64,000 nucleotides of DNA from Diplosphaera chodatii (Eukaryota; Chlorophyta; Trebouxiophyceae; Prasiolales; Stichococcaceae), in NCBI GenBank assembly GCA_032358165.1, contig JAALGY010000054.1, positions 372,001 through 436,000 on the forward strand. Reading direction: 5' to 3'. The notes under the pieces were generated by a model. The model ran no database searches. It was given only the letters and a program-made list of their open reading frames with translations, and was not told the DNA's origin. A program made the translations under genes and the position numbers. Below are positions 23,459 to 44,853 of the stretch, piece by piece; the first letter of the stretch is position 1, and the number at the start of each line of letters is the position of its first letter.

Positions 23459-26400
23459 ATGTCGATGGCTGAGTCGTGGGCGTGGGAGGCGCTTCTTGCC
23501 TCCGACAGCACACGCATCGCAACAGTTGCACCAAGTTTGGATGATTTGAGCAGCCTGGCGGGTCAGCAGCCAGTGCTACGCGCGCGCCTTGATCTGTTCT
23601 TGCTGCGAGAGGTTGCATACGGCCGTGGTGCCCTGGGATCGCACACGGTAGCGCAACTGGTAGACCTTGCAGAGGTGGTGGCCAAGCACAATAGTGGGCA
23701 GGCCACTCTCGACCAGTACACAACGGAATTTTTTCAGCTCGACCCAAAGGTCGACCTCATTGTTGCGGTGAGTTGTCGGGCCATCCTTGGAACACCCTTT
23801 GCTGCCATGCCGAGGCTTGTCCTGTCCGCGCCGAGAAGGGGCTCGCAGAAGCGGCTCCTGATGGGGACATGTTTACCGTTTAGGTCGATGTGAACACCGA
23901 GCACTTGTGTGACGGTGCACAAGCATCAGCTTGGAACGTCTAGACAGGACATTTTGGCATGCGGGCGCTGACACTGAGCTGTGTGTGCAGGTTGGCTTTG
24001 TGCTGGTGCTCAAGAAGTTGCAGGGGTTGACTTTCCCGGGCAGCCAAGACACAGACAGCCCTGGCGAGGCATTCGAGCTCTACTGCTCCAGGTGGAAAGA
24101 TGCGGGCATCAGTGGCCGCAACATGTGAGTCATAATCCAATGCTGATGACCGCTCTGTACCGGTGACCTCGGTTGCAGTGCTGTCTATGTTCAACTCGCC
24201 ATGAAACACAAGCTGTGCAGAAGGGACTGGTCACCATGAGCGCAACGTTTCATGAGGTGCTCACCCGCGCCATGCTGCTCTGCACGTTCTGCAGCAAGGA
24301 TACATTCGATCGCCTGCTCGACACCTATGCTGCGGCGCGGCCTGAGGATGTGCATGGCCTCACTCGGGAGGCGGACTCCATTGCTTCGGTCATCGAATCC
24401 ACGGTACTAGACCCTACGACATAGTGTGCAGCTGATGTCCATGTATCTTCAGTTGGCTTTGTCTGCACAATTTCGAAGAGATGTTGTGCTCATACACATC
24501 GGCCTTAGCTTCTGTGCATGCAGATGCTGAAAGACCTCAGGGAGTTAGTAGAGGAAGCAAGCGACCGCCTGGGCCCTGCGTTTCTGCAAGTGAGGAGTGG
24601 CGCCTTGGCTGAACATAGTCTCGCCTCAGACGATTGTGGGTCATGCAGGTGCAGCTTGCAATGAGGCACGTGCCTCTTTTCATGACTAAGTGGCAAATCA
24701 GTGCTTTGCACACTTGCAGGAGGTGGCGAAGTACGCTGACGACTTCCGGGGTCACAACATCCGGTGAGTGTTTGCTCAGCCCCTGCTGACACTTGCGTGC
24801 AGCTCAGCATATGTTGTCATGGCATGAGTTGCATATACACGCGGTGCACGGTTGCATACTGTTCTCTCTGCTGTCGGTATGGTTGAGGTTTCGCCTGCAA
24901 TCGCAGTGAGCAGCTGGATCAGCTGGAGAAGGAGCCACCTCGCAAGCAGCAGCGCCTCGAAGCCAATGAGGTGCTTTACACACTGGCTTCGCAAAGTCAC
25001 TCCAACAATCGGTGCTGCTTTGCATGACCGCTAGCTACGCGCCTCACAAACATCGCATTATCAAGATGGCTTTGGTCAAACAAACAAGTTTGTTACTGCT
25101 GCAGGCTGGGCCTGGGTCACCTGAGGTACAGAGGACGCTGAGTCGCTGCTTGTCCCCAGTCGATGCATATCACACATTTGCAAGCAGTGATGTCGATGGT
25201 GACCACAGCTCGACAGCCTGCATGCTGATATGTACGCAGGCATACGCCCGAGCAATTGCAGCATATGCCCAAAGGATGGGTATTGGGCCGAGTCCTGCAA
25301 GGGCGAACCACGGCCAGATCATGGACGATGCCTCGGCGCAGCGCCTCAATGCGCGTGTGCGGGTGAGCATGTGTCATTTATAGGCATCAAATTTGCTGCA
25401 AGGTATTCCACGCAAGAGTTTCGTTCTTTACGAGCATAGCTGGTCCGCAGTAGTGTGACATTGCAGGGGGCCGTGTCATCCATTTGCAGGCGCGGGAGGC
25501 TTTTGCGGAGGATGGCATGTACGCGCAGCAATCCCCAGCGGTGGCAGGTGGCATGGTGATCGGCACGCCAGCGCGTGCCAGGGTGTCCGAGCCGGATGCA
25601 GGTCAGTGCTTGGCGCCTGAAGTAGTGTAGCCGGCCAGCCGGCTATGACTGTGATGCTTACTACTGCACGAGAAGCGCAGCGTCCCGTCGTGCTGTCCAG
25701 TCATGCATGCTGCAGCCCAGCGTATGTCAGCGGCACATGAGTCACCTGCTCCTGCCCTGCGTGACAACAAAGCAGCTGTTAAGAGGGAAGGGCATAGAGC
25801 TCTCCTGCAATGGACGTCCTCCCAATGCCAGCGCTTGCTGCTGTTCAGGTGGCGCCGGGCCGTCGCAGCCGCGGCAGGGGCGCACCATGGTATGGGGCGA
25901 CACCCCTGGCGAGGTGCATATCTTCGCCTTTCACACCCTCCGCAAGTGTTGGCCTCTCCGTGGTCAGTGACGAAGAGGAGCGAGTTCAATGCCTCGCAGT
26001 TTCGGCCATGCAGGCGCCTGTTATGGCAATGCAGTGCTTCCTTGTCGCCGTCTCAACATGAGCAACGAGAGGGTGTTGAGCAATTCTGATGCGCTGTTGG
26101 CAGGGCACAGCCTGGACCTGGCGGCAACGACCATGCCTCATGCTATACCGACAGAACAGCTGGCTTGCGGTGCGCAGGTGCCAGACCCCTTGGAGTTGTC
26201 GCCAACAAGGCGAGCGTACCGCCCGCCGTCGTACCGCACGCCGCAGGGGCCTGGCGAGCCGAAGGGCCGGCGGCCCACAGTCAGATGGACGCAGGAGGTA
26301 CGTGTGAGTCAACCTTCACGGGTGTCGAAGCCCAAGCCTCCGACTTGGAATCTGCTTGACGGCTGACATGACGCTGTTGCTGGCCAGTAGCGTTGCTCCT

Positions 26401-27320
26401 GACTTGGGTTTCCCTGTTCAAAACAAGAAAGACACGGTGTCGTCCAGCTACACCACCCGCAGTATACCGGCAAGATTATGATAGTGTGTTGTGTTGAAGT
26501 GGCATGGTGGTCAACTGCAGGAGACGGACCACTTGACCCGCATGGTCCACGAATTTGGAATGGGTTCATGGGCAGCGATGATCAACAGCTTGCAGCATGA
26601 CGACCTCATTCAGCGCCGCAGTGCGGTGAGCTTCCTCACAGCCCATGCTCGTCGTCACATGGAGGAAAGTGCGACTCATCCTGTCGTGATGCGGACGTCA
26701 GCTGCGTCTCCGATTATCGGGGTCCAGGAAGTCACGTCAGTAGTCGTTTGGATGCAGGTTGATCTGAAGGACAAGTGGCGCAACATGTGCAAGGCACGCC
26801 CTGAGCTGGAGCGTGTGGGCAGGCGAGATGGCGACCAGCCCGGCCCGCATGGCACGCCGGCAGCGCTGCGGCGGCCGCCCGCTGAGCAGGTGGATGAGCA
26901 CCCGCCCCGGGACGCAGGTGCGCAGCAGCGCCACGAGTACAACACTTGGCCGCTGTGCTTGGCGCAGGCGGCACTGTCTTGACTGCTGTCCGTGCTCATC
27001 GGCGATCGTCACATGTGTGCAGAGCGTCCCACAAGTTTCACGACCTTGCAATGTTCACACGTCCTCGGTTGGCAGGGGCTGCCAGCGACACGGCCCTGCA
27101 CAGCGGCAATGGGGCGCCAGCGGCGGCGGAGGCAGGCGGCACCGCAGCCATCGCAGCGGCGGCTGCAGGTGGCGACGGCAGCGGCAACGGAGAGCCCGCT
27201 GAGGCACGCACTGTTGAGGGGGGCATGGTGGAGGGCGGCACAGCCGAGGCGGACAGTGGCGAGGGTACTGCGGTGGCCGACACCGCCGAGCTGGCAGGGG
27301 AGCAGGCAGCAGCCGGGTGA
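23459..27320 (+). CDS. TRF-like telomere-repeat binding protein, copy A (TRFH-like region plus C-terminal telobox Myb)
   Basis: Predicted nuclear protein binding double-stranded telomere repeats. Fourteen exons close to 558 residues: 23459-23767, 23991-24124, 24295-24403, 24524-24589, 24720-24763, 24907-24970, 25105-25125, 25240-25362, 25490-25601, 25849-25913, 26178-26297, 26521-26625, 26758-26917, 27076-27320. The C-terminal Myb (about 383-440) has the three spaced tryptophans and VDLKDKWRNM, the telobox signature of TRF/TRB proteins. Residues about 5-225 are predicted helical and resemble TRFH by eye: KDTFDRLL, then LKDLRELVEEASDRLGPAFL. A basic PPRKQQR near 234 may be a nuclear signal. 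An Ala/Gly-rich tail follows the Myb. Two introns interrupt the Myb; copy B lacks them. The start gives MSMAES, matching MSLAEQ in copy B. The Myb call is firm; TRFH is inference. Confidence 0.85.
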
Positions 27321-27893
27321 GGCAGCTAATCCACAGCGTTGCTGGCTGCGTCGCCGACAGCCAGCACGTTTGAGACTTGTTTTGGGACGATGGGGCCCTG
27401 TCTGCAGCAAGTGAACCATATGGAGGCAGCAGTGGCGTCCCAATAGCCAGCAGTACAGCAGTGCACGGCAATACTGGCAGTGCTGCAGCCGTTGAGCTTG
27501 TGCTATAGCACTTGGCGTGCAGGAGTCCTGCAGCGCGCTCCTCGTTGTGACGTTTGTCGATGCTGCACCGTACTTTCAGTACGAGTACGAGTACTGTTAC
27601 CACCATCCTGCATACCCTGGCGTATGCAACCGTAAACCACAGTTGCGACCCTACTTGCGACAGGGTTCGTGATTTCAACCTAAAACGTCACGCCCGGCAG
27701 CGCCACACTCCACCGCTGCAACGAGCCGACTTGACTTGCTTGTGACTGTGGCGGCTGCAAGGCGTTGCTAGCGATCGGGGAGGTTCTTGAGGCCTGACGC
27801 GCGCGTGCATCGCATCCCCTTTGGCATATATCACGGCTCCGAGCGCGAGCTCAGCGACTCACTGGCTGTACGCCCGCAGTGCAGACATTCATC
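27321..27893 (+). other. Spacer between the tandem TRF-like genes
   Basis: Holds the 3' UTR of copy A and the promoter of copy B, including the shared 18-base block at 27634-27651. A short run of TACGAG units lies near 27575. No TGTAA was found, and nothing codes. Confidence 0.6.
27634..27651 (+). promoter_or_regulatory. Promoter block shared with TRF-like copy A
   Basis: Identical over 18 bases to 23204-23221 and at nearly the same distance from the start codon (260 against 255 bases). It is followed by AGGGTT at 27662-27667, one base short of the telo-box-like AGGGTTT seen in copy A. Confidence 0.5.
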
Positions 27894-30800
27894 ATGTCGC
27901 TGGCCGAGCAGTGGGCCTGGGAGGCGCTCCTCGCATCCGACGGCACAGATATCGGTGTAGTTGCTCAGTTTGAGGCAATGGCCCCAACCGGTCTGAAGGA
28001 TCGGCCAAGGCTCCGCGCCTTCGCTGCGCTGCACTGGCTGCGCAAGGTCGCAAGCGGCAGCGAAGAGCTCAGCGCGCGCGTCATCGATGCTTTGAGCGTG
28101 CTTGCCACTTTGGTGCGGCAGCATCGCAGCAGCGGGGGGGGCATGTTTGATGAACAGTACAGCACTCCCAGCCTGCTCGAGCCGGATATGGGGCTGGATT
28201 TGCGGGTAAGAGTCTGTCTCTCAGGCATCAGCAGCTGACAACTGAGATACAGACGCCATAGCGTCCACAGCATGTGGTACTTTTGTGTCTTGGCGGTGAT
28301 GGTCTCGGGCTGCTTGGGGGGCTTAAATCACTCGAGCCGAGGTCATAGTGCGTGGTGCTCAGCATGCGGGATTTGGAATTGTTCTGGACCCTGGTGACAG
28401 TCATTTGTCACCACGCAAGCGCCGATCTGCTGACCCCTACCATGCAGGTCGGCTTCAACCTGGTGCTCAAGAAGCTGCAAGGCCAAGTCTACCCAGGGTA
28501 TCAGGCAGAAGAAAGCCCCAGCGACGCCTTCGACAAGCGTCACTGTTACATGTGGCGGCTTGCAGGCAACTATGGCAAGAAGATGTGGGTCCACCCCCTT
28601 CTGCTGATGACCACGCACGCTGCACCTGTGTGTTGTCTTTCACATACCTTGCATAAGTAAGCCACATGCTGCTGTGCATATGCTGCAGCGAGAAGCAGTT
28701 CCACGAGCTGATGACACTGAACACTCCGGCGCGACATGAACAGCTGCCACACGCTGCACGGGAGCTGGCGGACACAGCAGAATTCGCCGACGCCGAGGTT
28801 TGGACCCAAACATGCATCGTGCTTGCCTGCCAGACATGCAGCAAGGTGTTGCAGATACAGCCCAGTGTCCGCCTGTACTAGCTAGCCTAGCCACGCACGG
28901 ATCTGGCTGGTGATGCGACTATGCACTGCATGCACGATGATCACACATGATTGAAAGCATGCTTGACATGTGCATGGCAGGTGCTGAAGGACGTCAAGAA
29001 GTTTGTTGAGATGGCCACAGAAGGACTCGGCGCTGTGTTTTTGCAAGTGAGCCATTACTGTGTAGCTCGCGCTTCTGAAGCTTCATTCAACTAGCACCCA
29101 GTGTCACCTGAGTGTGTTGCTTGGGAGTGCTTGCTTTGTGAGCGGACAGCAGTGCGTCATGTGCCACCCAGTAAACAGCATGCTCGCGTGCTTTTAGGAG
29201 CTGGCGAAGCATGCAGCAGATGACGACCTCAAGGGCCATGGTATCATGTAAGTGTGTCCTCAGAACAGGCCCACAGTGCTGCATCAGCACAGCACCTGCG
29301 CACTTCATGCATGTCGCTGAGCTTGCCTATATTCAAATAGAGGTTGATTGCAAGCATCCTGCAACAGCTGTGATGCGGTGCTGCAGTGAGCAGCTGGAAG
29401 GACGTCCCCGCAAGCAACAGCGGCTCAGTTCAGATGAGGTGCTCGTTTGCTCATGGAACATATTACTATATGACCTATGCACCTGGGCTCAGCAGCCTGA
29501 CAGTTTTGCAGATTCGTCGTTCAGTCACATATCAATCGCTATGTGTCCGCCTTGTTGCTGCAGGGTGGGCCTTCTTCTCCCAGGCTTGAGCAGGCCTCAC
29601 CCGAGGTGGGAGATATAGCGGCCGCTCATTGTGCCTTGCTGCAGTTTGCCTTGTCGCAGTGTGCGTTGCTGCATCAAGTTCATTTCTGTTTGCACTGTCC
29701 ATCACGCAGCTGTATCTTCAATAAGGACAACAGCTGCTCAAGCAAACGACGAATATATAAGGTTCGGTTGCAGGCGTGTGGCGGGGCAGTTGCTGCGGCG
29801 CTGCAGTGCCTGAAGGTTGTGCAGAATCCTGTGGGCGTGCTGCAAGAGTGGAATTACAATGGAGCCTCGAACCAGCGTCACGTTGAAAGCGTGCAGGTGC
29901 GTATGGTATGGTAGCGCATGCATGGCGAGTGCCTAACTCTTGATGTGGTCCATGGCAGCATCATCTGCGCATGCGCCTCGATCTCCTGCGTATCACACGT
30001 CCCATGACCCGCAGACTGTTGGCAACACTGCAACGTCTGTGCCCGCTGTAGGCACCGGAGGCATTGGTGGATGGTGGCCTGTACCTGGATGATGCTCCTG
30101 CAGCGGCTGGCAGCGCCTTGCTCAGCACCCCAGCAGGCACCAGGGTCGCCGCGCCAGATGCAGGTCGGTGCGTTGGCAGCGTTAGCATGCAGTCAGCCTA
30201 GCAGCCTGCCTGAGCGCAGGCTGCTGCGCATGCTGCAACCACGGATGCCGTGCCGTCGATGTTTGCTGTTGACAGATAGAGAGGGTGCACAGCACCTGAA
30301 CATGTCTTGCCGTAAGCACACATCTCGGACTGGGGCGCTGGTTTCGGGGCAGTGTGTACCAAGCAAAGTGATCATTCATGGTGCGTTCTGGGTATGATCA
30401 GGTGGGGCTGGGCCATCGCAACCGCAGCAGGGGCGCACTGTGGAGCGGGTCGACACCCCTGCTGGCGAGGTACATCGGTTGCTCTTGGCGATCCGACCGC
30501 TGTCAGCGGCATAATCCGACCTGTACTGATGTACATGGTACAAGGGCTTGGACTCTTCGCCCTGCATGCAACACTGCATGGCAGCGCTGCCCATGCCAGC
30601 CCGTGGTGTCCTTCACATGTCAGTCGATGTTGTGGATGTTGTGTTCCGTCTATGCCATGCATTAGGGTATGGCATGCAAAGCAGCAGGTGCTTGTCCGCG
30701 AGCAGTCCTATAGCGGCACACCCACTTGCTTGCCATCAACTGTCCGCTCAGCCTGTTCGCTTATCCTTTGCATGCTATCTGAACGCCCGATCGACATGTA

Positions 30801-31388
30801 GCATGGTGTCGTCAGGTGCCACACCCACTAATGGAGACACAGGTGCAGCGGCAAGACTGTTCAGAGCCGGATGTCGGATCACCAGATAACGGTGTCACCC
30901 CAAAACCTCGGCGGGAGACAACAAAATGGACGGAGGAGGAGGAGGACCACTTGTTCCGGCTGGTTCGGCAGTTCGGCACGGGCCAGTGGAAACAAATGCT
31001 CAAGAGCACGCGGCAGGGCGATACAATTCGGCGCCGGACGGGGGTGGACCTGAAAGACAAGTGGAGGAGCCTACACAAAGAACCACGCTCTGGGAAGAGA
31101 CGCAGCCGGGGCGGCCGGAACAGCAGCCACCTTGGCCAATGTGGTACCCCGGCAGCGCTAAGGCTGCCGCCTGCTGAGCATGCGCCTGCTGGGGCCGAAG
31201 AGGCTGCCGGCAACACGGCCCTGCACAGGGGCAACGGAGCGCCCGCGGCGGCGGAGGCTAATGGCGGCACTGCGGTGGTCGCAGCGGCTGCAGGGGGTGA
31301 CGGCAACCGCAATGGAGAGCCCGCTGGGGCGGGCACTGTTGAGGGGGGTATGGCGGGGGTCGGCACTGCCGAGGCGGACGGCGGCTAG
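27894..31388 (+). CDS. TRF-like telomere-repeat binding protein, copy B (tandem paralogue)
   Basis: Tandem duplicate of copy A, with the same likely role. Eleven exons close to 547 residues: 27894-28205, 28448-28584, 28689-28797, 28981-29046, 29198-29247, 29387-29438, 29564-29605, 29774-29896, 30052-30163, 30402-30469, 30816-31388. The first ten introns match copy A in position and phase. The last exon covers what is four exons in copy A. The Myb domain is uninterrupted: KWTEEEEDHLFRLVRQFGTG with W395, then VDLKDKWRSL at 434-443. The helical N-terminal region includes RAFAALHWLRKVASG and LKDVKKFVEMATEGLGAVFL. RPRKQQR is a candidate nuclear signal. The TAG at 31386 sits where copy A has GAG, and in-frame homology to the copy A tail continues for 18 codons to a TGA at 31443, so this copy appears to have been shortened by a nonsense change. 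Confidence 0.86.
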
Positions 31389-32406: not shown

Positions 32407-34068
32407 ATGGCCGAATCTGAGAGGGAAAGCGGCGCAGCCGAATGTTACCCTACGGCAGAGGCGCGGCCCGCAGTTGCCGGCCCACCGGACTCTGGGGCTG
32501 CAGCCGGGACCATGGCGGCGGCCAGCGTTGCAGTCCCTGCAGGACCGCAGGCGGTTGAGCCGGCGGCCAGCTGCGACGGCAGGCAGCAAGACGGCACCAC
32601 CATGGCCAATGGAGTGGGTGGCGACAGAGCGGACAGCGGTGCGGCCAGCACGGCGAGCACACGCCAGGACAAGGGCAGGGAGGTTACATACCGCCTGGTG
32701 AGGCACCTGAGACGAGACACACGCCTCATACGCAGGCTTCCTCCATGCTGGCTCCCGTGCTGCAAGCGTGGGCACACGTGCTGCGTCCTGGCGACTGCCA
32801 CAGTGGCTCACAGTGTGGACTGTTCAAGACGCTCACACTTGCACCGACTGCAGTACCGAGGGGAGGAGGACTTGCGGCACGTTATGCGGCTGATAGACAC
32901 GGAGCTCAGCGAGCCGTACTCCATATTCACCTACAGGTGCTGTCGTGTCAGACCCGCACTGCGTCACGCCTGTGAAGCCTGATCTGTGCGTGCCTGACCA
33001 TCTGGCGGTCCACCATGCAGGTACTTCCTGCACCAGTGGCCCAGTCTCTGTGTGTTCGCCTGCGACGGCGGGGGCTTGCAAGTTGGCACCATCGTTGCCA
33101 AGGTGCAACGCCAGCACGAGTGGCTGGCTGCAGTGTCCGTGCAAATGCAAGACTGCAGTGCGCGTACCTGGTATGGGCTGCCGCCTGCTCTGGTGCAGTG
33201 ACCTGCCGCCGGCGGCTGCTGACACCACGCTGTCGGCTGCCCGCAGGTGGAGCCACACAAGAGCTCGGGCGTCATGCGCGGCTACATCGCCATGCTCGTG
33301 GTGCAGAAGCCCTTCCGCGGCGCGGGCATAGGTGCGACCCCTGCAGGGGCACGCCTGCTGCAGCGGCCAGAAGTGGGCGCCCGGGCAGGGCATGCGAGCA
33401 TGGAAGATTTGGGCTCTCAAGCCAAGTCTGTCAACCTACGCCTGCATATCGGCTTCTTGGGATCATACAAGCACCTGCTCACCTGGGGTGCTGCATTGCT
33501 GTTGGAATCATACCTGCACCTGCTCACTCGGGGCGCTGCACTGCTGCCAGGTACGCAGCTGGTGCGGCGGGCTATTGAGGGCATGCGGCTGCAGGGCGCG
33601 ACGGAGGTGGTGCTGGAGGCGGAGACGCACAACGCGGGCGCGCTCGCGATGTACGAGGGCCTGGGCTTCATCCGGGACAAGCGCCTCGAAAGGTGGGTCA
33701 TGACCCTGCACACCCAATGAGCAGCCTGCTGGCGACCCAGCTCATGCTGCCAGTGCGGGCAAGTGTTGAGGGTCCAGCACTGACTGTGTAACGGGATGGT
33801 GTTTGGGCAGTGTGTGTGTATGCCGGCACCTGCAGCAGGATGCTGGCTTCATCCTGCGGTGGCGAGGTTGCATGCTTTGCAACGCAGGTACTACCTGAGC
33901 GGCACTGACGCCTTCCGGCTGAAGCTGCTGCTCCCAGAGCCGGGGGAGGGGGCGGAGAAGCTGGCGGCACAGGCGGAGGCGGCCGCTGAGGCGCGGCGGC
34001 TGGAAGCCATGGAAGCCAACGCAGCAGCTCTGCAGATGCACGCGCTGCGAGTGGAGAGCGTAGCATAG
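32407..34068 (+). CDS. NAA30: N-alpha-acetyltransferase 30, catalytic subunit of NatC
   Basis: Transfers acetyl from acetyl-CoA to the start methionine of nascent proteins beginning Met-Leu, Met-Ile, Met-Phe and similar, at the ribosome. Six exons (32407-32697, 32854-32936, 33021-33102, 33247-33331, 33551-33692, 33888-34068) give 287 residues. Residues 1-97 are a low-complexity Ala/Gly/Ser-rich extension. The GNAT domain then follows the family closely: DTELSEPYSIFTYRYFLHQW, VMRGYIAMLVV, the acetyl-CoA loop FRGAGIGTQLV, VVLEAETHNAGALAMYEGLG, and FIRDKRLERYYLSGTDAFRL. A helical Glu/Ala-rich tail ends the protein. The GNAT core has the usual family length; the N-terminal extension is variable among NatC enzymes. 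The first ATG of the open exon was taken as start. Confidence 0.95.
33460..33548 (+). repeat. Imperfect tandem duplication in a NAA30 intron
   Basis: Two adjacent units of 44 and 45 bases (33460-33503 and 33504-33548), each with ATCATAC, then GCACCTGCTCAC and GCTGCA, fill the end of intron 4. The second unit runs into the acceptor used for exon 5. Confidence 0.75.
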
Positions 34069-34628
34069 CGCGGCCAGCAGGGCCCAGCTTCTGACACAGC
34101 AGCCAGGCGTCACGCTCGTGTGTTGCAGATGCAGCTCCGGCAGTCTGTCTAGTGTTGTCATTTTATAGGACGACTCACACCATTGGAGACCAATTTGCCG
34201 GTGGGCCGGGCCCATACTTGGAAAGGGACACGTGGTCTGTTGCCACGGTGGCAGGGGCCCACAACAGATGCGTAATCCGGGCAACATCACAAGAGACCGG
34301 CACTTGCGCACCAGCTCGGCGGATGCGTTCCAGCTGCTACGACCCGCAAACGTCAGAGTCTGTCTGGCGTCTTGTTTGTTGTCGCAAGCGAACGGCTTGG
34401 AGGTCTGCAACGTCTTGCATCGGAAGCGTGCTGCAGCAAGAGCGTTTGCCAGTCGACATGAACCCCGTTGCCATCTTTGGTGCAGTGCTGCAGACGCACG
34501 CAGTCCCAAGCTGAAGGGTCTGCCGCTCGTTTGCGTCGCTTGATTTACTCTGCAAAAAGGTTTCCGCAGCAAGCCTTCCACGTGTGCAGTCAGCAGACTC
34601 AGCTGCAAGCAGCGCACCCCGCCCGAGC
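34069..34628 (+). other. Intergenic region between NAA30 and the membrane protein gene
   Basis: 3' UTR of NAA30 and promoter of the next gene. I see no coding frame with recognisable content, no clear TGTAA and no repeat. Confidence 0.55.
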
Positions 34629-37163
34629 ATGCGAGTACCAGTGGTACTTGTAGGGCTTCTTGTGGTGCTTACGGGCCTCTGCGTGCCAGCAGTCGCCAGC
34701 AGGGCCGGGTTTGTGGCTGGTGAGCTGGCATGTCAGAGTCGGCTTACTGCATACTTGCGACCGCGTGACACCGCCTGGCGCGCGCTGCAAGCATGCTCAC
34801 CAAGCTCACATTGTTAACAGAGATTGCATGCTTGCACCTGCATTGGTAACTCCGCCTCCTGTCATGTCTTGCAGGTGTGCCTGGTAGCAGCAGCGGCAGG
34901 CTTAGCCATGCCGCACACAGCCAGTCAGTTCGACACACAAATCGCCGGCTGCTGCAGACCACCAACGCCACCTCGGCCGCCACAGCCGCAGCGCCACCTC
35001 GGGGTGTGCTGCCGCCGCCGCCCGCAGCCGTGGTGATCAATGCCACTGGGGATGGACCGGCGTTGGCGCCAGCCGACGATCCCGCTGACAATCGTGGCAA
35101 CTTCGCGGGAGCCAACTTTGGGTTCCAGGTGGGCACCCGACACCTGACTGAAGACCTCACCATGTGCTCGTTGCCTGTTCCGCGCCCTATTGCACAACCA
35201 GCCCAGAGTTGCTGCCTTCCTATGCGAGGATTGACTATGGTCCTCAAGCTCAAAGGCACTTGCATCGGTCCTCTCCCCCAACGAGTCTGCGCTTACCCTT
35301 GCTCTTGACGCATGGCGTCATCATTGAGGCCTTGCTGCTGTCGTCTGCGGCTGGCTATGGTGTGAGGGTGTTGTGACGGTCTGTTACTGCGTGCTGGCGC
35401 AGTTCAACAACAACGTGGCGTTCATTGGCGTCGCCATCATCCTGGGGCTGGCGGTGTCGTGCTTCTGGGGCGTGTGCGGGGTGTACCGTCGGCGGCGCCT
35501 CGCGGCGCACAGGTTCAGCGGGCCGCCGGGCAACGGCAGGGGAGGTAGGCTGCCAAGCACCGCGTGCAGTACATACTATGCTGGGAGAGTCATTAGCTGG
35601 CAACCCTGTTTCTTTGTGGAGCCTTGGATGCGTTCAGTGGAGTCTGTGCATCAGTTGTTAGCGCCGGCAGCCTGCATCTGCACTGGCAGCCCGGTGCTGC
35701 ACCTCCTATCTGGCCTGCATCTGCCTCCTGTGGTGCGTTCGCTCACTGCTGGGGGCCAGTGTAAGTGCACCATGCCGATGATGGTGTGCTGCTCTGTAGG
35801 TGACATTCCAGAGGTGCAGCTTGTGCCCCAGGACGTGAAGCTGACCGTCCAGCCGATTGTGGTGATACAGGTGCGCTTCTGGCAACACACCGTGCAATGC
35901 AGACCCAGATCCCCTGTTTTGCCTGTTCTTCCCCTTAATGGTGCTGTAATACGATCTTGTCTGGGCAACGACAGGCGACTGCATTGAGTGATACTTGGTG
36001 GCCCTGCAGCCCGACAACGAGAGCATTGCGTACACTTTCCGGGAGCTAGACCCTGAGGGCGGTAAGGGCAGCAGCAAAGGGGACAGCGATGGCGGAGGCG
36101 ACTGCAGTTGTGCCGGTGCCACCCCGGAAGAGGCGGAGCAGCAGGCTGATGCCGGCAACAGCGAACTGCCCAGCAACGCTGTCAGCAACGGCAGCAGCAG
36201 CGCCGGGCTTGGTGGCAGCAATGAACGAGCTGGGGATGCTCCTCCCGCTGCTGCTGTGGGCGCTGCAGTCGAGCCTGCAGATGGCCACCCAGCAGCGGCA
36301 GGCGATGCTGCAGGCACGGCGGCAGCCCAGCCGGCGATCCCGCAGCAGCAAGGGCAGCCTGGGGAGGCCGTCGCAGCGCTGCAGGAGGCCGGGTTGCTTC
36401 GGCGTCACAGCTCGAGGAGACGAAGTGAGCACAGCTTTGTCGAAACTCCCACCTCTGGTGTTCATGCACCATCTGCATCTGGACGTCAGTCTGGCTGACA
36501 TGCTGATCGAGAACGCTGGTTGTCGCACATCTTGACACATGTTGCCGCAGCGCTGCCACTGTGTGCACAGCCGTGAACTGGCAGCCGGCGCCACGACCCC
36601 GCTCACCCGTGCCGGTTCACCCCCTGCTGCAGGGCCGCTCGGCATCCCGCGGCTGCTGGAGTGGGACCTGGGCGCTGCGCTGGCGGCGCTGGACGCTGAG
36701 CGGGCGGCCGCCGGCGACCAGCCCTCTCTCAGCAGGGGCGTGTCGGCCGCCGCCCTGACCCGCAGCCCCTCAGGTCAGCTGGCTGCCGGACCTTATGGAC
36801 GTGGTGGAAGATGCTCGCTTGAGTATGAGATTTGGAAGGCGCCTGCCAGCTCGGTCTGATGCATGAATTGTAACTGCGGGGAATCGAAGATCACAGTTTA
36901 CTGCAAGGGACGCACACGCCTGTTGGCCATGGCGGTGCTCATCTAGAGTGTCACAGACGTCTTTGTGCCTTGGGTTAGTGACACTGAAGTAGTGGCACTG
37001 AATCTGTTACAATGCAGGCGCACTGGCAGTCGGCAGTCGGCCGGGCTCGTTCGTCGCGCTGAGCCGCAGCCCCTCGGGGTTACTAGGCTCCAACAGCAGG
37101 ACGCCTTCCGCGGCAGCCCTGCAGCGAACCTCCGGCAGCCTGGCGGCAGGCAGCAGGCTGTAG
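34629..37163 (+). CDS. Predicted type I single-pass membrane protein, unknown function
   Basis: Not recognised. Seven exons (34629-34719, 34875-35128, 35403-35544, 35800-35870, 36010-36424, 36633-36773, 37018-37163) close to 419 residues. A clean signal peptide opens it (MRVPVVLVGLLVVLTGLCVP, cut near AVAS). A short extracellular part of about 90 residues, rich in Ala, Pro, Asn and Thr, has two N-glycosylation sequons (NATS, NATG). One membrane helix follows at about 120-143 (FIGVAIILGLAVSCFWGVCG), then a basic stop-transfer YRRRRLAAHR. The cytosolic part has a short conserved-looking stretch (VQLVPQDVKLTVQPIVVIQP) and then Gly/Ala/Ser-rich low complexity with repeated RSPSG. The exon structure and phases are sound; the role is open. 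It could be a cell-surface adaptor or receptor-like protein without a kinase domain. Confidence 0.75.
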
Positions 37164-38162
37164 GGGCTGCATGCAGCATGCAGCGTCTCCTCGTAGCCAT
37201 GCACGATGCGTGCGGTTGGTTCTGACGTTCGAGTGGCCTCGAGGCTGTCACAGCTGGCTGCCATAGGGGTCATTGAGGGATCTGCCGTCAGAGCAGTATG
37301 TGCAGCGTGGTGCATCGCAGACGGTCACGATACCGTCGTGCTGTGCTGCAGCGTCTGGGATGGTGCCTCGTGACTCATCGGCTTTACGCTTGCTTTGCAG
37401 TGTATCATGCGTATTGGACTTGACAGTCGAAACTGGGGGGTTACTGTTTCATCTATGTATGTGCACACTGGTTTGCGCCTGTTGATAGCTTCTAAAGTGT
37501 ATTCGGTCTGCATAATGCTTGCTGCTGTCTGAATTTGCTAGATTGCTGCGCCTGACCTTTGCTGTTGAACTGGTTGCCCCAGCGTAAGGCAACTGTTGTG
37601 GTCGATCCTTTGTTGCTGAAAACATTGCGGCACACTCTTGCGTGCGTGGTGAAGTCAGGCAATCGAACAACCAACCCCTCAACCAAAGATGGCCCACTCA
37701 GAATAGGTCAGCACAGTTGCTGCCGTGGTCACAGACGAAAGAACTAGGGTCTCAAACCCCGAAGTTGTCAGGTCGGTGGTGCCTACCAGCTATCTAACAG
37801 AGCGACTATTGTCACCACCTGGTGGTGTCGACTCAGAAAGCAAGGCGCACTTTGTTGGCCGCAGTCATACCATGTGCAAGCGCACATGTCATGCGCAAAG
37901 TCGCCTGCAGAGTTGCTGCCTATGTCCAAGTGGATTGCAAGTGCATCGTGCACTGCGGTCATCATGGGCAGCTAGCAGCTTAGACCACAGCTGCCAATGG
38001 CTGACGACAGATCCCTTATCGGTAGGCGGAAGGTCAAAAGCAGGCAGTCACCCCTGGCGGAAGCTATCTGCAGCAGTCTTCGGCATGGCCCCGTGTTTTG
38101 TCGAATTCCAGTTCCTTCTGGTGTTCAGTCTTCAGCAGCAGCAGCAGCGGTGCTCGCGCCGC
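37164..38162. other. Tail-to-tail intergenic region
   Basis: About 1 kb between two stop codons, lower in GC than its neighbours. It contains a tRNA-like pair of internal promoter boxes on the minus strand (37748-37796). No protein-coding frame is supported. Confidence 0.5.
37748..37796 (-). other. tRNA-like A box and B box (possible tRNA-derived remnant)
   Basis: On the minus strand, TAGATAGCTGG (37796-37786) resembles a tRNA A box and GGTTTGAGACC (37758-37748) a B box with one change. They are 27 bases apart, as in tRNA genes. The flanks do not form a seven-pair acceptor stem, so this is not an intact tRNA. It may be a tRNA pseudogene or SINE head, or chance. Confidence 0.25.
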
Positions 38163-39368
38163 TCATGGGAAGTACCAGGGGGGGCAGTAGGCGGCGCCGC
38201 CGCTAAACGAGTTGCCCGAGTTGCGGGGCTTGCCGCAGCCGGCCCGCCCCGTGCCGCCGCCGCCCTGCTTTGCGGGCTTTGTCTTGGGGTTGTACCCGAT
38301 CTGGCCCTTGAACGTGCTGGCGGTGTTGGACACAAAGCGATTCTTCGTCAGTGTGGGCGTCGCGCCATTGCAGTAGGAGTAGAATATTGCGCCACCCGTG
38401 AGCTTTGCCTTGTTCTGCTGGAACAGGTTGGATGCGATCACGGGCTTGCAGCCGCCGTCCGGTGAGCCGATCTTGATGGCGCCGCCGAAGCCCTGGCTGG
38501 AGTTCTTGACGAAGCGGTTGCTCTTGATGGTGGACACGCGGTTGGTGCGGCAGTAGTCGTGGAAGATTGCGCCGCCAAAGTCGCCGTAGTTCACAACAGA
38601 GTTGCTCAGGAAGCTGTTGCTGACCACATTTGCGGCGGCGCCGGCCGTGATCATGACGGCGCCCGCCAGGTGACCCCGGTTGCCGCGGAAGGAGCTCTTG
38701 GACACGCTGAATGTGGCGCCCTCGGTGATGTAGGGGCCGCCGGTGTGGCACCGCCGCTTATCGGTGCACACGTTGCTGGTCCAGGTGCAGGCGGTGGCGG
38801 ACACCTTGCTGCGGCTCACGGCAAGCGTGGGGAAGCGCAGCCCGTAGTTGCCGGTCCACTCAAACTTGGAGAAGGCTGCGGTGGTGCCCTGCTCCACCGT
38901 GATGGAAGCCCAGTCGACGAGCGACAGCGAGCGGACGTAGCCGGTCAGCTTCAGTGGGCCGGCGCCGACGAGGAATAGGGCGGGCTCGGCGTTCTTTGGG
39001 CCCAGGAAGTTTGGCTCGTTCGGCAGACGCAGGCTGACGCCGATGAAGCTCTTGGGGTGGGAGCGCGCATAGTTGACCAGCGGCCTGCCAGCGAAGAAGG
39101 TCGGCTTGCGGCCCGTGCACTTGATGTACGCGGACTTCAGGCCGTACTTCTTGCCTGTGCCGTTGATCCTGATCAGGCAGCTGGCCGTCGCAGCCTTCAG
39201 CGACCGTCCGTGGGTGCCGTCCAGAGCTGCGTCGGCGTACCACGTGGGCTGTGGCATGGTGTATTTTTCAAAGTCCTCGTCGCCGGCCTGCGCCGCGCTC
39301 AGGGCGACAAACGCCATGGCAACGATACCTGCCAGTAGGGCGCCGTAAGTCGTAGCGCGTGCCACCAT
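38163..39368 (-). CDS. Secreted right-handed beta-helix protein with chlamydial Pmp-type repeats, intronless
   Basis: One uninterrupted frame of 401 residues, the only intronless gene in the window. A signal peptide opens it (MVARATTYGALLAGIVAMAF, ending ALSAAQA). The C-terminal half repeats the two hallmarks of polymorphic outer-membrane protein repeats: GGAI (three times, as in FGGAIFHDY, FGGAIKIGS and TGGAIFYSY) and FxxN (SFRGN, SFLSN, RFVKN, LFQQN, RFVSN). These build turns of a parallel beta-helix. About ten cysteines are spread through the mature part, fitting an extracellular protein. It lacks the C-terminal autotransporter barrel of bacterial Pmp proteins, so it is probably soluble or wall-bound. 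The ligand is unknown. The ATG at 39368 was chosen because it starts the signal peptide; the upstream frame has no such feature. Confidence 0.85.
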   Translation of the reverse strand: MVARATTYGALLAGIVAMAFVALSAAQAGDEDFEKYTMPQPTWYADAALDGTHGRSLKAATASCLIRINGTGKKYGLKSAYIKCTGRKPTFFAGRPLVNYARSHPKSFIGVSLRLPNEPNFLGPKNAEPALFLVGAGPLKLTGYVRSLSLVDWASITVEQGTTAAFSKFEWTGNYGLRFPTLAVSRSKVSATACTWTSNVCTDKRRCHTGGPYITEGATFSVSKSSFRGNRGHLAGAVMITAGAAANVVSNSFLSNSVVNYGDFGGAIFHDYCRTNRVSTIKSNRFVKNSSQGFGGAIKIGSPDGGCKPVIASNLFQQNKAKLTGGAIFYSYCNGATPTLTKNRFVSNTASTFKGQIGYNPKTKPAKQGGGGTGRAGCGKPRNSGNSFSGGAAYCPPWYFP

Positions 39369-40084
39369 GCTTGCTCGCCCGCGGTAGATCGCACGCAAAC
39401 AGCTGTCTTCGCCGCCGCACGTGTGGACTGCCGGTTGATGTGTAGTCGGTCTGTGTGTGCTGGAGCTACAGTTGACCGATCGGCGGTGCGAGGTGGGTTC
39501 GTATGTTACGAGATGGCGCACGCAAGCTTGTAGGCTGCAAATGGCAAGTGGGCCACTTGTGCGAGTCAAAGTGAACGAGACTTGTGGAGGGCACGTTAGC
39601 TTGGTAGGCTTGGTAGCTGGGTGCAGCGAAAATTGCAGTTTGACTGCGGCTTTTAATGGTTGTTGTTGGAGTGTGCAGAGCTGGATGCGTCTGTGTGAGG
39701 GTTCGCGAGATGCTCGCTGGCGTGTGCGCTCGACGGTGTGTCATCTCAACGGTCCGTGCTTTGGCCCGCCCTGGTGCAGTATACAGCCTGGAAGGTACGG
39801 ATACTAGGCAATACTGCGTCGGACAGAGCCCCATCGTCATCCTGCGTCGGACTCAGAGCACCCATTCCAAGTCCACACGAGGCCTCCAGCCAAGCCAGCA
39901 CCAGCAGAAGTTATGGTCGGCAAAGGACTGGGGGTTCTGCCACAAACAACTGTGCCGTCACTGCTCTGATTATTACATCATGTATGGCACACACTCTGCT
40001 ATCGAACCCCTCGATGCCAGAGAGCATCTCTTCACAACACCATTCCAAACAATTTAGAGCAATGCAATCAAGTTGTCAGGATCG
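39369..40084 (-). other. Intergenic region upstream of the Pmp-like gene
   Basis: Promoter side of the Pmp-like gene and 3' side of the O-fucosyltransferase gene. Apart from the TTACA at 39973 nothing can be named; no coding frame is supported. Confidence 0.55.
39973..39977 (-). terminator. Candidate poly(A) signal for the O-fucosyltransferase gene
   Basis: TTACA (TGTAA on the minus strand) about 108 bases past the 40085 stop. This supports the more distal of the two possible ends of that gene. Confidence 0.45.
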
Positions 40085-43000
40085 TCAGTAGGCAGCACAG
40101 TGCACGTCAGAGCAGGCGCCAGACACACCTGGAGTGCTGCTGCCAAACCCAGAACCACGTTCTACTAGCATCAGCACCGCTCGCACGGTGCTGTCATCGG
40201 CAAGCAGTGCAGTTCGCAGGTCGGCACCAGCTCGCAGGAGCCGCCAGCTGCGCAGCAGGTCAGGCTGCCGTCGCGGCTGCTCCGCCAGCGCCGGCAGCAG
40301 CTGCTGCCCCCGCGCCTGCCTGCGCCGCCGCCTGCTCTGCCGCTGCCGCCTGGGTGCAACAAAAGATGCCAGCGTCAGCGTCATCACAGCTTTGAGAAAT
40401 GCCATGGGCCGACCAAGCAGAAGGTGTGCAGCCAAAAGGAAATGTACAGGTTTCCACTCAGCCGCCTGGGAAGTCTGCCAATGCGCTGCAGCTGCCACGC
40501 TGCTCGAGCATGGTGGGCGATCACCACAAGCAGAACAGTAATATCGTCCAGGGTGTTGAAATACTGCAGGAGCAGAGGGCGCGCCTGGTCCTGCTGCTCC
40601 CGCTGCCGCTGGCGCACCAGGTGCTCCCCGGGCAGCGGCCGCGTCAGGATGCCTGCCGCCTGGAACAGCGGGTCCGTCCCGATCGCCGAGCCGTCCACCA
40701 GCACCGAGCGCCCCCGCTCCACCCCCTGTATCGACACACGCTTCCATGATCAGGCAGGCCCTGCCGTGGTGGCGCAGCGCAGGATGTCCAATCACTCATC
40801 ACACAGAGTACATGCGACGCAGGCCGCAACCAGCCAATGCAAAGTCAGAGCTGCACTCGCAGGCCGGTGTGCACCACAGGAGAAGTGCAGGACCAGGGAC
40901 CCGGCGGCTGGCGGACCTGCATGGTGCGGTACTCCCGCAGGAAGAAGCTGTAGGTGGACGGCCCGAAGCCCACGAAGCGGGACGAGTGCGCGAGCACCAG
41001 GAAGTCGATCAGGCCGCGCTGCTCGGAGTGCAGCCCCGCCAGGTCGCCCTCGCTCAGGAACATCTCCTTGTACACCGCGCCCTGGCACAGGCCTTCCCCC
41101 GTCAGGTTGCCCACCACCTGCGGCGGCAGGGTGGACACTCACAGGAGCATTCCTGCTGTGCAGCCTCGGCCAGACCTATAGGCGATGTTGAGTTGCTGCC
41201 TGTGCCTCATGAAGCGTGTCAGTATTTTCAGGTTCCGCTGAAGAGAGACGCTGTGCTTGTCACTTTATACATTATATATTTATTTATATATTTCTCGGTG
41301 ATCTCACAGACATGGCCCATGACCTACCTGCTGCAGCTCCTCAGGGCCGCCCTTGTACGACAGCAGCGCCGATGCGACGTACAGCACCGTGCGGCCGTCG
41401 AAGCCTGCCTCCCGCATGGCTGCCCTGCAGCACAGCAGCGCACACAATCAATCTCCCTGCATGTGCGCGCTGCCGGCCAATTGCAAGATGGCACAATAGG
41501 GCAAAGGCCATGTGGGAGCATCTGGCCATGCATGGGAGGCATGCCCAGTGATAACTTGACGGCTTGGAACATCACCTGGTGTAGTCATGGAGTAGTTATC
41601 AGGCCTCAGGCATCAGGCAACAGGCATCAAGCAGATCAGCCCACCTGTAGCGCGCCTCCACCACGTGGCGGCCGCCCAGGATCTGCGCCCAGGCGCCCGC
41701 ATCCTTCTCGATGCGCAGGTGCACCGCGTTGAAATCCTTGCTCCCTGCAATCGCAAACACGCCCCTCAATGACTGACCACTGAACGTGCTGGCAGAGTTG
41801 CCAAGCCACGAGCGTACTGCATCACTCGACCTGCTGCAACCCACACAATCGAGCAGCAAGCGCATCAGCAACTGGTGCCGGCTGGAGAGCCAAGACCGAG
41901 CCACCGGGGAAGCAGGATGCAACAGGCCCCGCACCGAGCTTCCGCCGCATGCTGGCGATGACTTTGTCGGCGAGGCGGTGGATGGCGGGCGACCAGACGA
42001 GCGTCTTGGCCACCGGCTCCACGATCGGCAGCGCCTTCTCCGCCCGCAGCATGAAGAAGGTGCACGGCAGGTCCAGCGCTACCGTGCTCACGTCCATGTC
42101 AGGGTCGATCCGCAGCGCCGCCTGCCGTGCAGCGGGCAGGCGTCAGCCCACAGCTAAACATGCAGCTTGAGCATGCTGCCCGGTAGTAGCTCCAGTCTCG
42201 GGCATTGCAGGTCCAGCGCCCGCACCACGTGGATGGCCGATCGGACCAGAGTGGTAGGGTGACGCAAAATATGGATACCTCCACGGTGTCCAGGACGGCG
42301 GCCCTGGAGCGCCGCACCAGCTCCTTCATCTGCAGGTTCTGGCCGAACACATTGTGCAGGCGCGCCGCCAGGAACTCCTGCACCCCGCCCTGCAGCAGCC
42401 AGTCTGTGCTGAGCCAAAGTGTGGAGCAAGGCGTGGATGCTTGTGCACACAGCTCAGCACACCGCCAGGGCTACGTATTGCAGATGGTTTGGACAATGAT
42501 CTTGTGCAGCCGCGAGCATGCGCCGCATTGTCAGGGGAGCGGGCATCTAACAGTCCTGCTGCTGCGTGCCCATAATATTTGACGGGTTTTCAGATGCAAC
42601 ATCCAGCGACTTGACGCCCACCTGCTCAGGTGGCGTGGGTGCATACGTGGGGAAGGCGGTCTGCGGCTGGCTGAGGTCCGGGGTGCGCAGTATGCGGGGC
42701 GTTCTGTACACCTGCACTCAGTGCACGAAGGCGCCAGCGTCAGCGGGGTGCTGGCACCTGGACTGCGAGGACATGTGCACAGACTGCGACAGGATGTAGC
42801 CTTGTCATCCACGGGCGCAGGGGGCCCGGGCATCTGGACGATCTGCAAAACCCTGTAGCACCTTCGTGCCGAGCCCCTCCCAGTTGCTGATGATCGCCTC
42901 CACGTCGTACAGCGACTCCAGTGGCGCAAAGGCCCACTTCACCGACGACTGCCCCTTGAACACCTGCGGAGCGCCGAGCAAGGGACGTCCCTCTCCATCT

Positions 43001-44378
43001 TGCGGGCACATCAGGCTCAGATGCTGGTACGACTGACACCCGCAACAGTGCCCCATGCTGGCTTGATCCAGAATACTCGATGAAGCACAACAACTTGAAG
43101 AACCACTGCACCTGTTGCACCTGTAAAGTGTACAGTGTACCCGCCTGGCATCAGAGGCCAGACCATAAAGGCCACAATAGCATGGGTGTGGGCGGGTGTG
43201 AGGCGCTCACGCTGAAGATGTGCTCGAAGGAGGAGCGGTGCATGGCGGGCGGCAGCACCACCTCCGCGCCCAGCATGGTCGCCAGCCCCAGCGCGGCGAC
43301 ATGCGAGTAGTGCTGGTTTATGAGCCCGGTGCCCGCGATGTACCGCAGCAGCAGCCGCAACCGCCGCGCCACGCGCCCCTGCAACATCATGCAGACCCGG
43401 CATTAACTCTTGGCGACCTCGTCCTGCAGAGTCCACTGGGCGGATGCCCTGAAGCAAGCTGCACACACCTGGAGGTGTCGAGCAGCCAGGTGGTGGGCTT
43501 GTCGCCAAACCACTGTTGAATGCTTGCGTGCTTCTACGAATGTTGATGTCGCCTGTGTTCAGCAGCCCCACCTGTGCCCTGCCGACGCGCAGATAGTGGT
43601 CCGCTGCCGCGAGCTCTGAGGTGATGCCCTGCCGCCGCAGCCACGGGTAGAACTGCAGATACGCCTCCCAGTCGAAGTAGGCCGGCAGGCTGCCATTTAC
43701 TGCAGTCAGCAGCAGGCGTCTGTCAGGACGCACTTTCCTCAAGACCACGGGCAGATGAAAGGTATGGTATGTGAGGAATGCCATGGCCAGGCTGCCAGAC
43801 TGTGCAGCGTATGCCCAGCACCATACACGTCTGAGCTTTCAGGCACTGCAGTCCCTGCCCCTGCACCAGCATGCCAATGAAACACGAGACCGAGTCCTAG
43901 TGTGCGATGCACCCCTCCAACCAACCCGAACACGTTGCACTCTGTCACGGAGGCACGGCCCCCTTCATGTGTATGTGATCTGTGAGCCTTTACAAACGGC
44001 TTGTGGGCAGCAGTGACATCAGAGAACGCACGGAACCTCACCTGCACCCGCTGCAATAAGCCGGTGGCCATGTGCTGTTTTGCACCGCCCGAACGCCCTG
44101 GAGCAGCCTCTATACTGCGTTGCTCCGGCCTTGGCTGCTGCACCGCGCTGATCCGAGACCAAGACTTGCTGCGGTGGCGCCGATCCGGCGGCAGCTGCGG
44201 CGGGGGAGGCCTCCTCCCGCAGCGACCTCTGGCGCACAACCGGCCCCCCGGTGGCGGAGTCCAGCCCCGCGTAGAAGCGGAACGCAACGCCGAAGGACAG
44301 CAGGAAGAGCGCAGCGAGTTTGGCTGCTCGCCAGACGGCCTGCTCCTTGGCTCCGTCGTCGCTGGATGCCCGTCTCAT
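40085..44378 (-). CDS. Plant-type O-fucosyltransferase family protein (GDP-fucose dependent, type II membrane)
   Basis: Golgi glycosyltransferase of the plant O-FucT family. Exons 1-10 (44378-44144, 43699-43572, 43378-43211, 42963-42862, 42711-42622, 42389-42279, 42121-41935, 41744-41645, 41424-41328, 41117-40917) keep phase for 473 residues; an eleventh begins at 40725. There is an N-terminal anchor at about 21-36 (LAALFLLSFGVAFRFY), then the donor-site region GLINQHYSHVAALGLATMLG with AEVVLPP. The family's key motif follows (VHLRIEKDAGAW, about 348-359, equivalent to HLRxExD). The C-terminal block is EGDLAGLHSEQRGLIDFLVL then SRFVGFGPSTYSFF. The acceptor protein or glycan is unknown. The 3' end is uncertain: either exon 11 reads on to a stop at 40384, or it splices once more to the frame ending at 40085. 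The TTACA at 39973 favours the latter. Confidence 0.82.
41263..41293. other. AT-rich patch inside an O-fucosyltransferase intron
   Basis: About 30 bases of almost pure A and T in the intron 41118-41327, in otherwise GC-rich DNA. No gene or element is recognised in it. Confidence 0.7.
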
Positions 44379-44853
44379 GGCATGGCTGGGCACCCGCCAC
44401 ACCGCGAGCTTGTGCAAGGCGACGCGGTCAGCGCGGCAAGGCTGATGAAACTTCTAGCTTGCCGCAATGTGTTACAAGGTCGAGGCTGCGCGCTGAAGAA
44501 GTTCCTGGGTTTCCAGGGTTGCCAATGAGGTGCACCCCTTTCACGTGGTGAAAGGTGGCAGGCCTTGTGAAGGGCTTGAGGGCAGGAGGGCTGGAGGGCT
44601 CTTGTAGGTGGTAACTTGGCGAGTACGCTGTGAAGACCAGCAGCAGACTTAGCAAGCATCTAACAGGTAGTAAGTAGCCCTCACAGAAGTGCTGTCTGCG
44701 TATTGATACACTTGGAAAGCTCCCAGCGCCAGAAACATGCTGTCGCAGCGCACCCACACTCCAACATGAAACCCCATACTCGCAGTTGTACGAATTCACC
44801 GCACGAAGCAGTCACATCCACGATACTGAATCGGAACCGACCCCAATAATTAA
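44379..44853 (-). other. Intergenic region between CBM20 and O-fucosyltransferase genes
   Basis: Head-to-tail spacing of about 475 bases: 3' UTR of the CBM20 gene and promoter of the O-fucosyltransferase gene. TTACA at 44472-44476 (TGTAA on the minus strand) is the candidate poly(A) signal. No coding content is seen. Confidence 0.6.
44472..44476 (-). terminator. Candidate poly(A) signal for the CBM20 gene
   Basis: TGTAA on the minus strand, about 380 bases past the stop of the CBM20 protein and about 94 bases before the O-fucosyltransferase ATG. Motif only. Confidence 0.4.

Follow-up and report, generated by a model that had tools for sequence, protein, structure and literature searches.

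Does a green alga possess telomere proteins of the TRF type, and do these carry the TRFH domain, which land plants are not known to possess? This question is raised by two adjacent genes of Diplosphaera chodatii, g1 and g2, located on a 64,000-nucleotide stretch of contig JAALGY010000054.1 (positions 372,001 to 436,000; hereafter the window). The initial annotation had described them as a tandem pair of TRF-like proteins, each with a candidate TRFH domain, and had placed them at 23459-31388, which is exact, 23459 being the start of the g1 ATG and 31388 the final base of the g2 stop codon. The domain order of both proteins is clearly of the TRF type. We consider it probable, if by no means certain, that g1 and g2 code for proteins of TRF architecture directed at double-stranded telomeric DNA, the N-terminal domain of which is most likely TRFH-like.

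The genes are a tandem duplicate pair, as annotated, with 46% identity between their proteins over 555 columns (blastp, expectation value (E) 2e-119), and this arrangement is repeated elsewhere in the genome. Exons matching the pair were found in an own-genome search on the minus strand of contig C15 and, spliced with g1 and g2 as guide, yield two genes whose tandem order is unchanged: g3, with 550 amino acids (aa), is the partner of g1, and g4, with 526 aa, that of g2. The g1 protein aligns over its full length with those of g2, g3, and g4 and with P0001, a close relative identified among the best 7993 candidates scored in the g1 search (E 4e-81 over 82% of the P0001 length). The alignment search, in which the best 7994 candidates were scored, gave P0001 again and was the only one to yield two further proteins: P0002, a distant eukaryotic relative, at E 1.6e-9, and P0003, which is TRB-like and comes from walnut, at E 9.9e-6.

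A Myb domain was matched by Pfam in all five rows of alignment A1. In case of g1, PF00249 covers residues 384-434 of 558 (E 1.7e-6, 28.4 bits, cut-off 24.4), and in case of g2 residues 394-443 of 547 (E 5.9e-8, 33.2 bits). VDLKDKWR is present in g1-g4 and P0001, and the V, K, D, and R of this helix presumably occupy the base-contacting positions of TRF1. Judged from their sequence, the proteins thus carry a telobox Myb in the C-terminal half, one of the criteria of the TRF family, but they do not end in it as had been annotated: the Myb ends 105-125 residues upstream of the C-terminus and is followed by an Ala/Gly/Glu-rich tail. A PDB search with g2 retrieved 36 distinct sequences up to E 10, with c-Myb (3.1e-4) at the top, followed by plant TBP1 chains, TRF1, and TRF2. 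The high rank of TBP1 and the Myb in the C-terminal half would also suit a plant class I TRFL protein such as TBP1 or RTBP1, i.e., Myb plus plant Myb extension, with which the VDLKDKW helix is common. This assignment is nevertheless very improbable, since the alignment of g2 to rice 2roh covers residues 28-80 of 122 and stops with the Myb, leaving the extension unmatched (a diverged extension could be overlooked by a local alignment), and since Pfam lists no ubiquitin-like domain. Plant TRB/SMH proteins likewise contain a telobox Myb with VDLKDKWRNM (P0003), but there the Myb comes first and is combined with an H1/5 domain, whereas the algal Myb is situated late in the protein and Pfam lists no domain of the linker-histone type.

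The N-terminal region of about 230 aa, described as conserved between the two proteins, is indeed 42.6% identical between g1 and g2 over 230 aa (E 4e-50), well above chance, and 45.5% identical between g2 and P0001 over 235 aa. The ten pairs formed by g1-g4 and P0001 range from 37 to 76% over 230-235 aa, and P0001 was the sole match in a search with the g2 N-terminal region (E 3.6e-49). On these identities the region is a real conserved domain. The BLASTP match between P0001 and P0002 is confined to the linker and the Myb; their N-terminal domains show 19% identity in the alignment, a value stated without significance.

A candidate TRFH domain had been proposed from short segments in the order and spacing of TRFH helices. 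All quoted segments that were checked exist, but they are split between the proteins, with VDLKDKWRNM and KDTFDRLL occurring only in g1 and VDLKDKWRSL, RAFAALHWLRKVASG, and LKDVKKFVEMATEGLGAVFL only in g2. KDTF, taken as a TRFH signature, is restricted to g1 and g3, and the site is occupied by EKQF in g2, KDQF in g4, and KEEF in P0001. Due to this lack of conservation and to negative profile tests, the motif argument, KDTF above all, was dropped.

Several tests for TRFH were negative. The family profile search proposed in the initial annotation gave no Pfam TRF match in g1, g2, g3, g4, P0001, or P0002, and a profile of the N-terminal domain retrieved nothing from PDB, even with E allowed to rise to 10. 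The TRFH comparison by hhalign (6-row versus 2-row alignment) resulted in P 0.33. In profile alignments to TRFH, the end-free score of 1.7 lies below the mean of 3.4 for 52 rotations and was equalled or exceeded by 36 of the 52 rotations and 46 of 60 column shuffles; the local score was reached by 50 of the 52 rotations and beaten by the reversed profile. Foldseek with the P0001 model yielded no significant match. Compared to animal TRF1/TRF2, the algal Myb is not at the very end, N-terminal sequence similarity is undetectable, and the fold match is weak (TRF2), with TRF1 unlisted. The N-terminal domain is thus unrecognisable as TRFH from its sequence, a profile match being a helpful but not a defining criterion. 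The missing sequence match argues only weakly against the fold, because a human TRF1+TRF2 profile itself missed Poz1 and Tbf1, both of which are in PDB. At E<=10, this profile retrieved 17 sequences from PDB, of which 13 belong to TRF1/TRF2 and 4, at E 0.1-0.15, to replication factor C. NCBIfam, a bacterial and archaeal library, gave no TRFH for P0001. An own-genome search with PF08558, uninformative due to an equally silent control, gave no match, nor did Rap1_C, the control of which was silent as well, and none of 31 pattern matches in a scan of viral contigs was confirmed.

The AlphaFold model of P0001, although of low confidence, has a helical N-terminal domain, in agreement with the annotated helical character. 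As to the anticipated likeness to TRFH structures, Foldseek gave nothing significant, as mentioned, but the seven longest among the 50 structural alignments listed (VIA) for this low-confidence model are to Poz1, Tbf1, and TRF2. TRF1, Taz1, and TIN2 are absent among these 50. Poz1 we take to have a TRFH-like fold, a point on which no paper turned up in the literature searched. Tbf1 homologues of several yeasts are given with TRFH in a table excerpted from PMC4839565. Over this domain, no other family scored higher or was clearly matched, so that neither a different fold nor clear similarity to another family, either of which had been named as speaking against TRFH, was encountered.

The same results bear on a green-lineage, TRFL-like telobox protein whose helical N-terminal domain is unrelated to TRFH and whose domain order arose by convergence. 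It would fit the negative TRFH tests at the sequence level and the absence of a significant Foldseek match, and telobox TRFL proteins are known from green algae: excerpts report two in Ostreococcus lucimarinus (PMC3400083) and a telobox tree including Coccomyxa and Ostreococcus in which TRFL and TRB are already apart (PMC4700174). Such a protein is rather unlikely, given that the longest listed structural alignments are to Poz1, Tbf1, and TRF2 and that no other family scores higher over the domain. A TRFH-like fold is suggested by the weak structural result, and if one identity had to be chosen for the N-terminal domain it would be TRFH, albeit unproven. The AlphaFold model of P0002 (mean predicted local distance difference test score 39.4) was rejected after failure of the internal control, in which VIA matched a thioredoxin region to phosphoribosyltransferases.

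Similar to animal TRF1/TRF2, the algal proteins consist of an N-terminal domain, a long linker, and a telobox Myb in the C-terminal half, the Myb being matched by sequence. To fungal Tbf1/Taz1 (TRFH plus C-terminal Myb) there is no sequence match, and Taz1 is missing among the structural matches listed. According to excerpts of PMC7952879 and PMC8402208, two TRF1/TRF2 subunits are paired by the N-terminal domain and provide one linker-borne Myb each. In the alga, the Myb would read the TTTAGGG repeat, and the linker would join it to the N-terminal domain of about 230 residues, most likely a TRFH-like helical fold. This domain would pair two subunits, enabling two Mybs to grip neighbouring repeats, and its surface would recruit end-protection partners. 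Dimerisation, telomere binding, capping, and any division of labour between g1 and g2 are inferred.

Four consecutive TTTAGGG units were matched at least 149 times in forward and at least 37 times in reverse orientation in the assembly, and a backwards-read control not once. Among the arrays listed, those of C7, C18, and C24 are situated at a contig end, and the match at 44556 of C33 may be internal. Furthermore, 56 genomic stretches match chlorophyll a/b-binding proteins, and one host protein matches PDB chlorophyll a-b binding chains (52 sequences, E<=1e-100). Together, TTTAGGG repeats and chlorophyll a/b-binding proteins fit a green alga, whether primary or secondary.

Instead of chromosome ends, the proteins might bind telomere-type repeats inside chromosomes, i.e., in promoters and subtelomeres, and act in gene regulation, which is compatible with a TRFH fold. 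Excerpts of PMC7952879 describe budding-yeast Tbf1 as TRF-like yet acting away from telomere ends, unlike the role proposed here. Tbf1 is among the structural matches listed, and other telobox Mybs of the genome, e.g., a TRB-like one on C13, could serve the telomeres. The same excerpts tie the shift of Tbf1 to a diverged telomere sequence, whereas this alga has TTTAGGG, and a Tbf1-like role appears unlikely.

The Myb on C13 (2859692-2860972; L017 2193-3473) belongs to an open frame of 426 aa, in which it is placed close to the beginning and which has a tail rich in glutamine; this Myb is 54% identical to P0003 over its residues 3-63; a linker-histone match is absent from that one open frame. 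More telobox-like Myb exons (L040-L043) are, by eye, paired on C49/C46 and C15/C47.

Both gene models (Table 1) are hand-built predictions that rest on splice sites and reading frames. All 23 introns (13 in g1, 10 in g2) have GT..AG borders. The ten introns of g2 correspond in order and phase (0,2,0,0,2,0,0,0,1,0) to the first ten of g1, an agreement partly built in since g1-g2 similarity helped to pick splice sites. The models are best checked from outside by P0001, a predicted protein of 579 aa that aligns along the g1/g2 length and whose contig of 2583 bases leaves little room for introns. The 3' part of g2 (30816-31388) is a single exon, and the same part contains three introns in g1, g3, and g4; g2 has probably lost them.

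Table 1. Features of the tandem pair in window coordinates
Feature	Position	Strand	Remarks
g1	23459-27320	+	14 exons, 558 aa; hand-built model, continuous frame
g1 exons 1-7	23459-23767, 23991-24124, 24295-24403, 24524-24589, 24720-24763, 24907-24970, 25105-25125	+	
g1 exons 8-14	25240-25362, 25490-25601, 25849-25913, 26178-26297, 26521-26625, 26758-26917, 27076-27320	+	
g1 N-terminal domain, candidate TRFH-like	23459-24970 (exons 1-6)	+	about residues 1-232
g1 exons 11-13, including the telobox Myb	26178-26917	+	residues 384-434 by Pfam; VDLKDKWRNM
g2	27894-31388	+	11 exons, 547 aa; hand-built model
g2 exons 1-6	27894-28205, 28448-28584, 28689-28797, 28981-29046, 29198-29247, 29387-29438	+	
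g2 exons 7-11	29564-29605, 29774-29896, 30052-30163, 30402-30469, 30816-31388	+	
g2 N-terminal domain, candidate TRFH-like	27894-29438 (exons 1-6)	+	about residues 1-232
g2 telobox Myb	30918-31079	+	about residues 392-445; VDLKDKWRSL

Much of the genome seems to be present twice, in diverged form, in the assembly of 85.6 Mb. Direct alignment with 30 kb of C15 (L036, L016, L037) shows window positions 12957-42100 to be collinear, with pieces 68-90% identical; an earlier DNA search with window positions 33000-45000 had C45 and C16, but not C15, among the matches listed. TERT and POT1 matches are paired on different contigs, as are, by eye, several light-harvesting genes. POT1 matches on C35 and C52 (L028, L029) are weak and below the cut-off. 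The tandem duplication seems to predate the split of the two genome copies. The second copy may originate from the other genome of a hybrid, from an old duplication, or from other or mixed strains. Eight regions were compared between partners, and in none does the ratio of nonsynonymous to synonymous differences per site (pN/pS) reach 1. The values span 0.34-0.92, with the minimum in the Myb of g1-g3 and the maximum in the linker of g2-g4. Silent-site divergence (pS) between g2 and g4 is 0.51 in the Myb versus 0.28 in the N-terminal part.

Of the shelterin-type TRF tentatively proposed for the green lineage, the domain order and the host thus stand, but TRFH at the sequence level does not. Given the telobox TRFL proteins reported in green algae, a green-algal telobox protein is not new, and novelty would lie in its possession of a TRFH domain; no literature joining TRFH to green algae and telomeres or to Chlamydomonas was found in a search that left out most subscription papers and all preprints. 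It is possible, with slight doubt prevailing, that a true TRF survives in green algae, in which case the shelterin-type duplex telomere binder would have arisen before green plants separated from animals and fungi, with later loss or replacement in land plants. The tandem pair, retained in both copies of the genome region, would then represent an independent duplication of the TRF1/TRF2 kind. The view that plants never had TRF would then become one in which land plants lost it, and the alga would offer a unicellular system for testing this loss.
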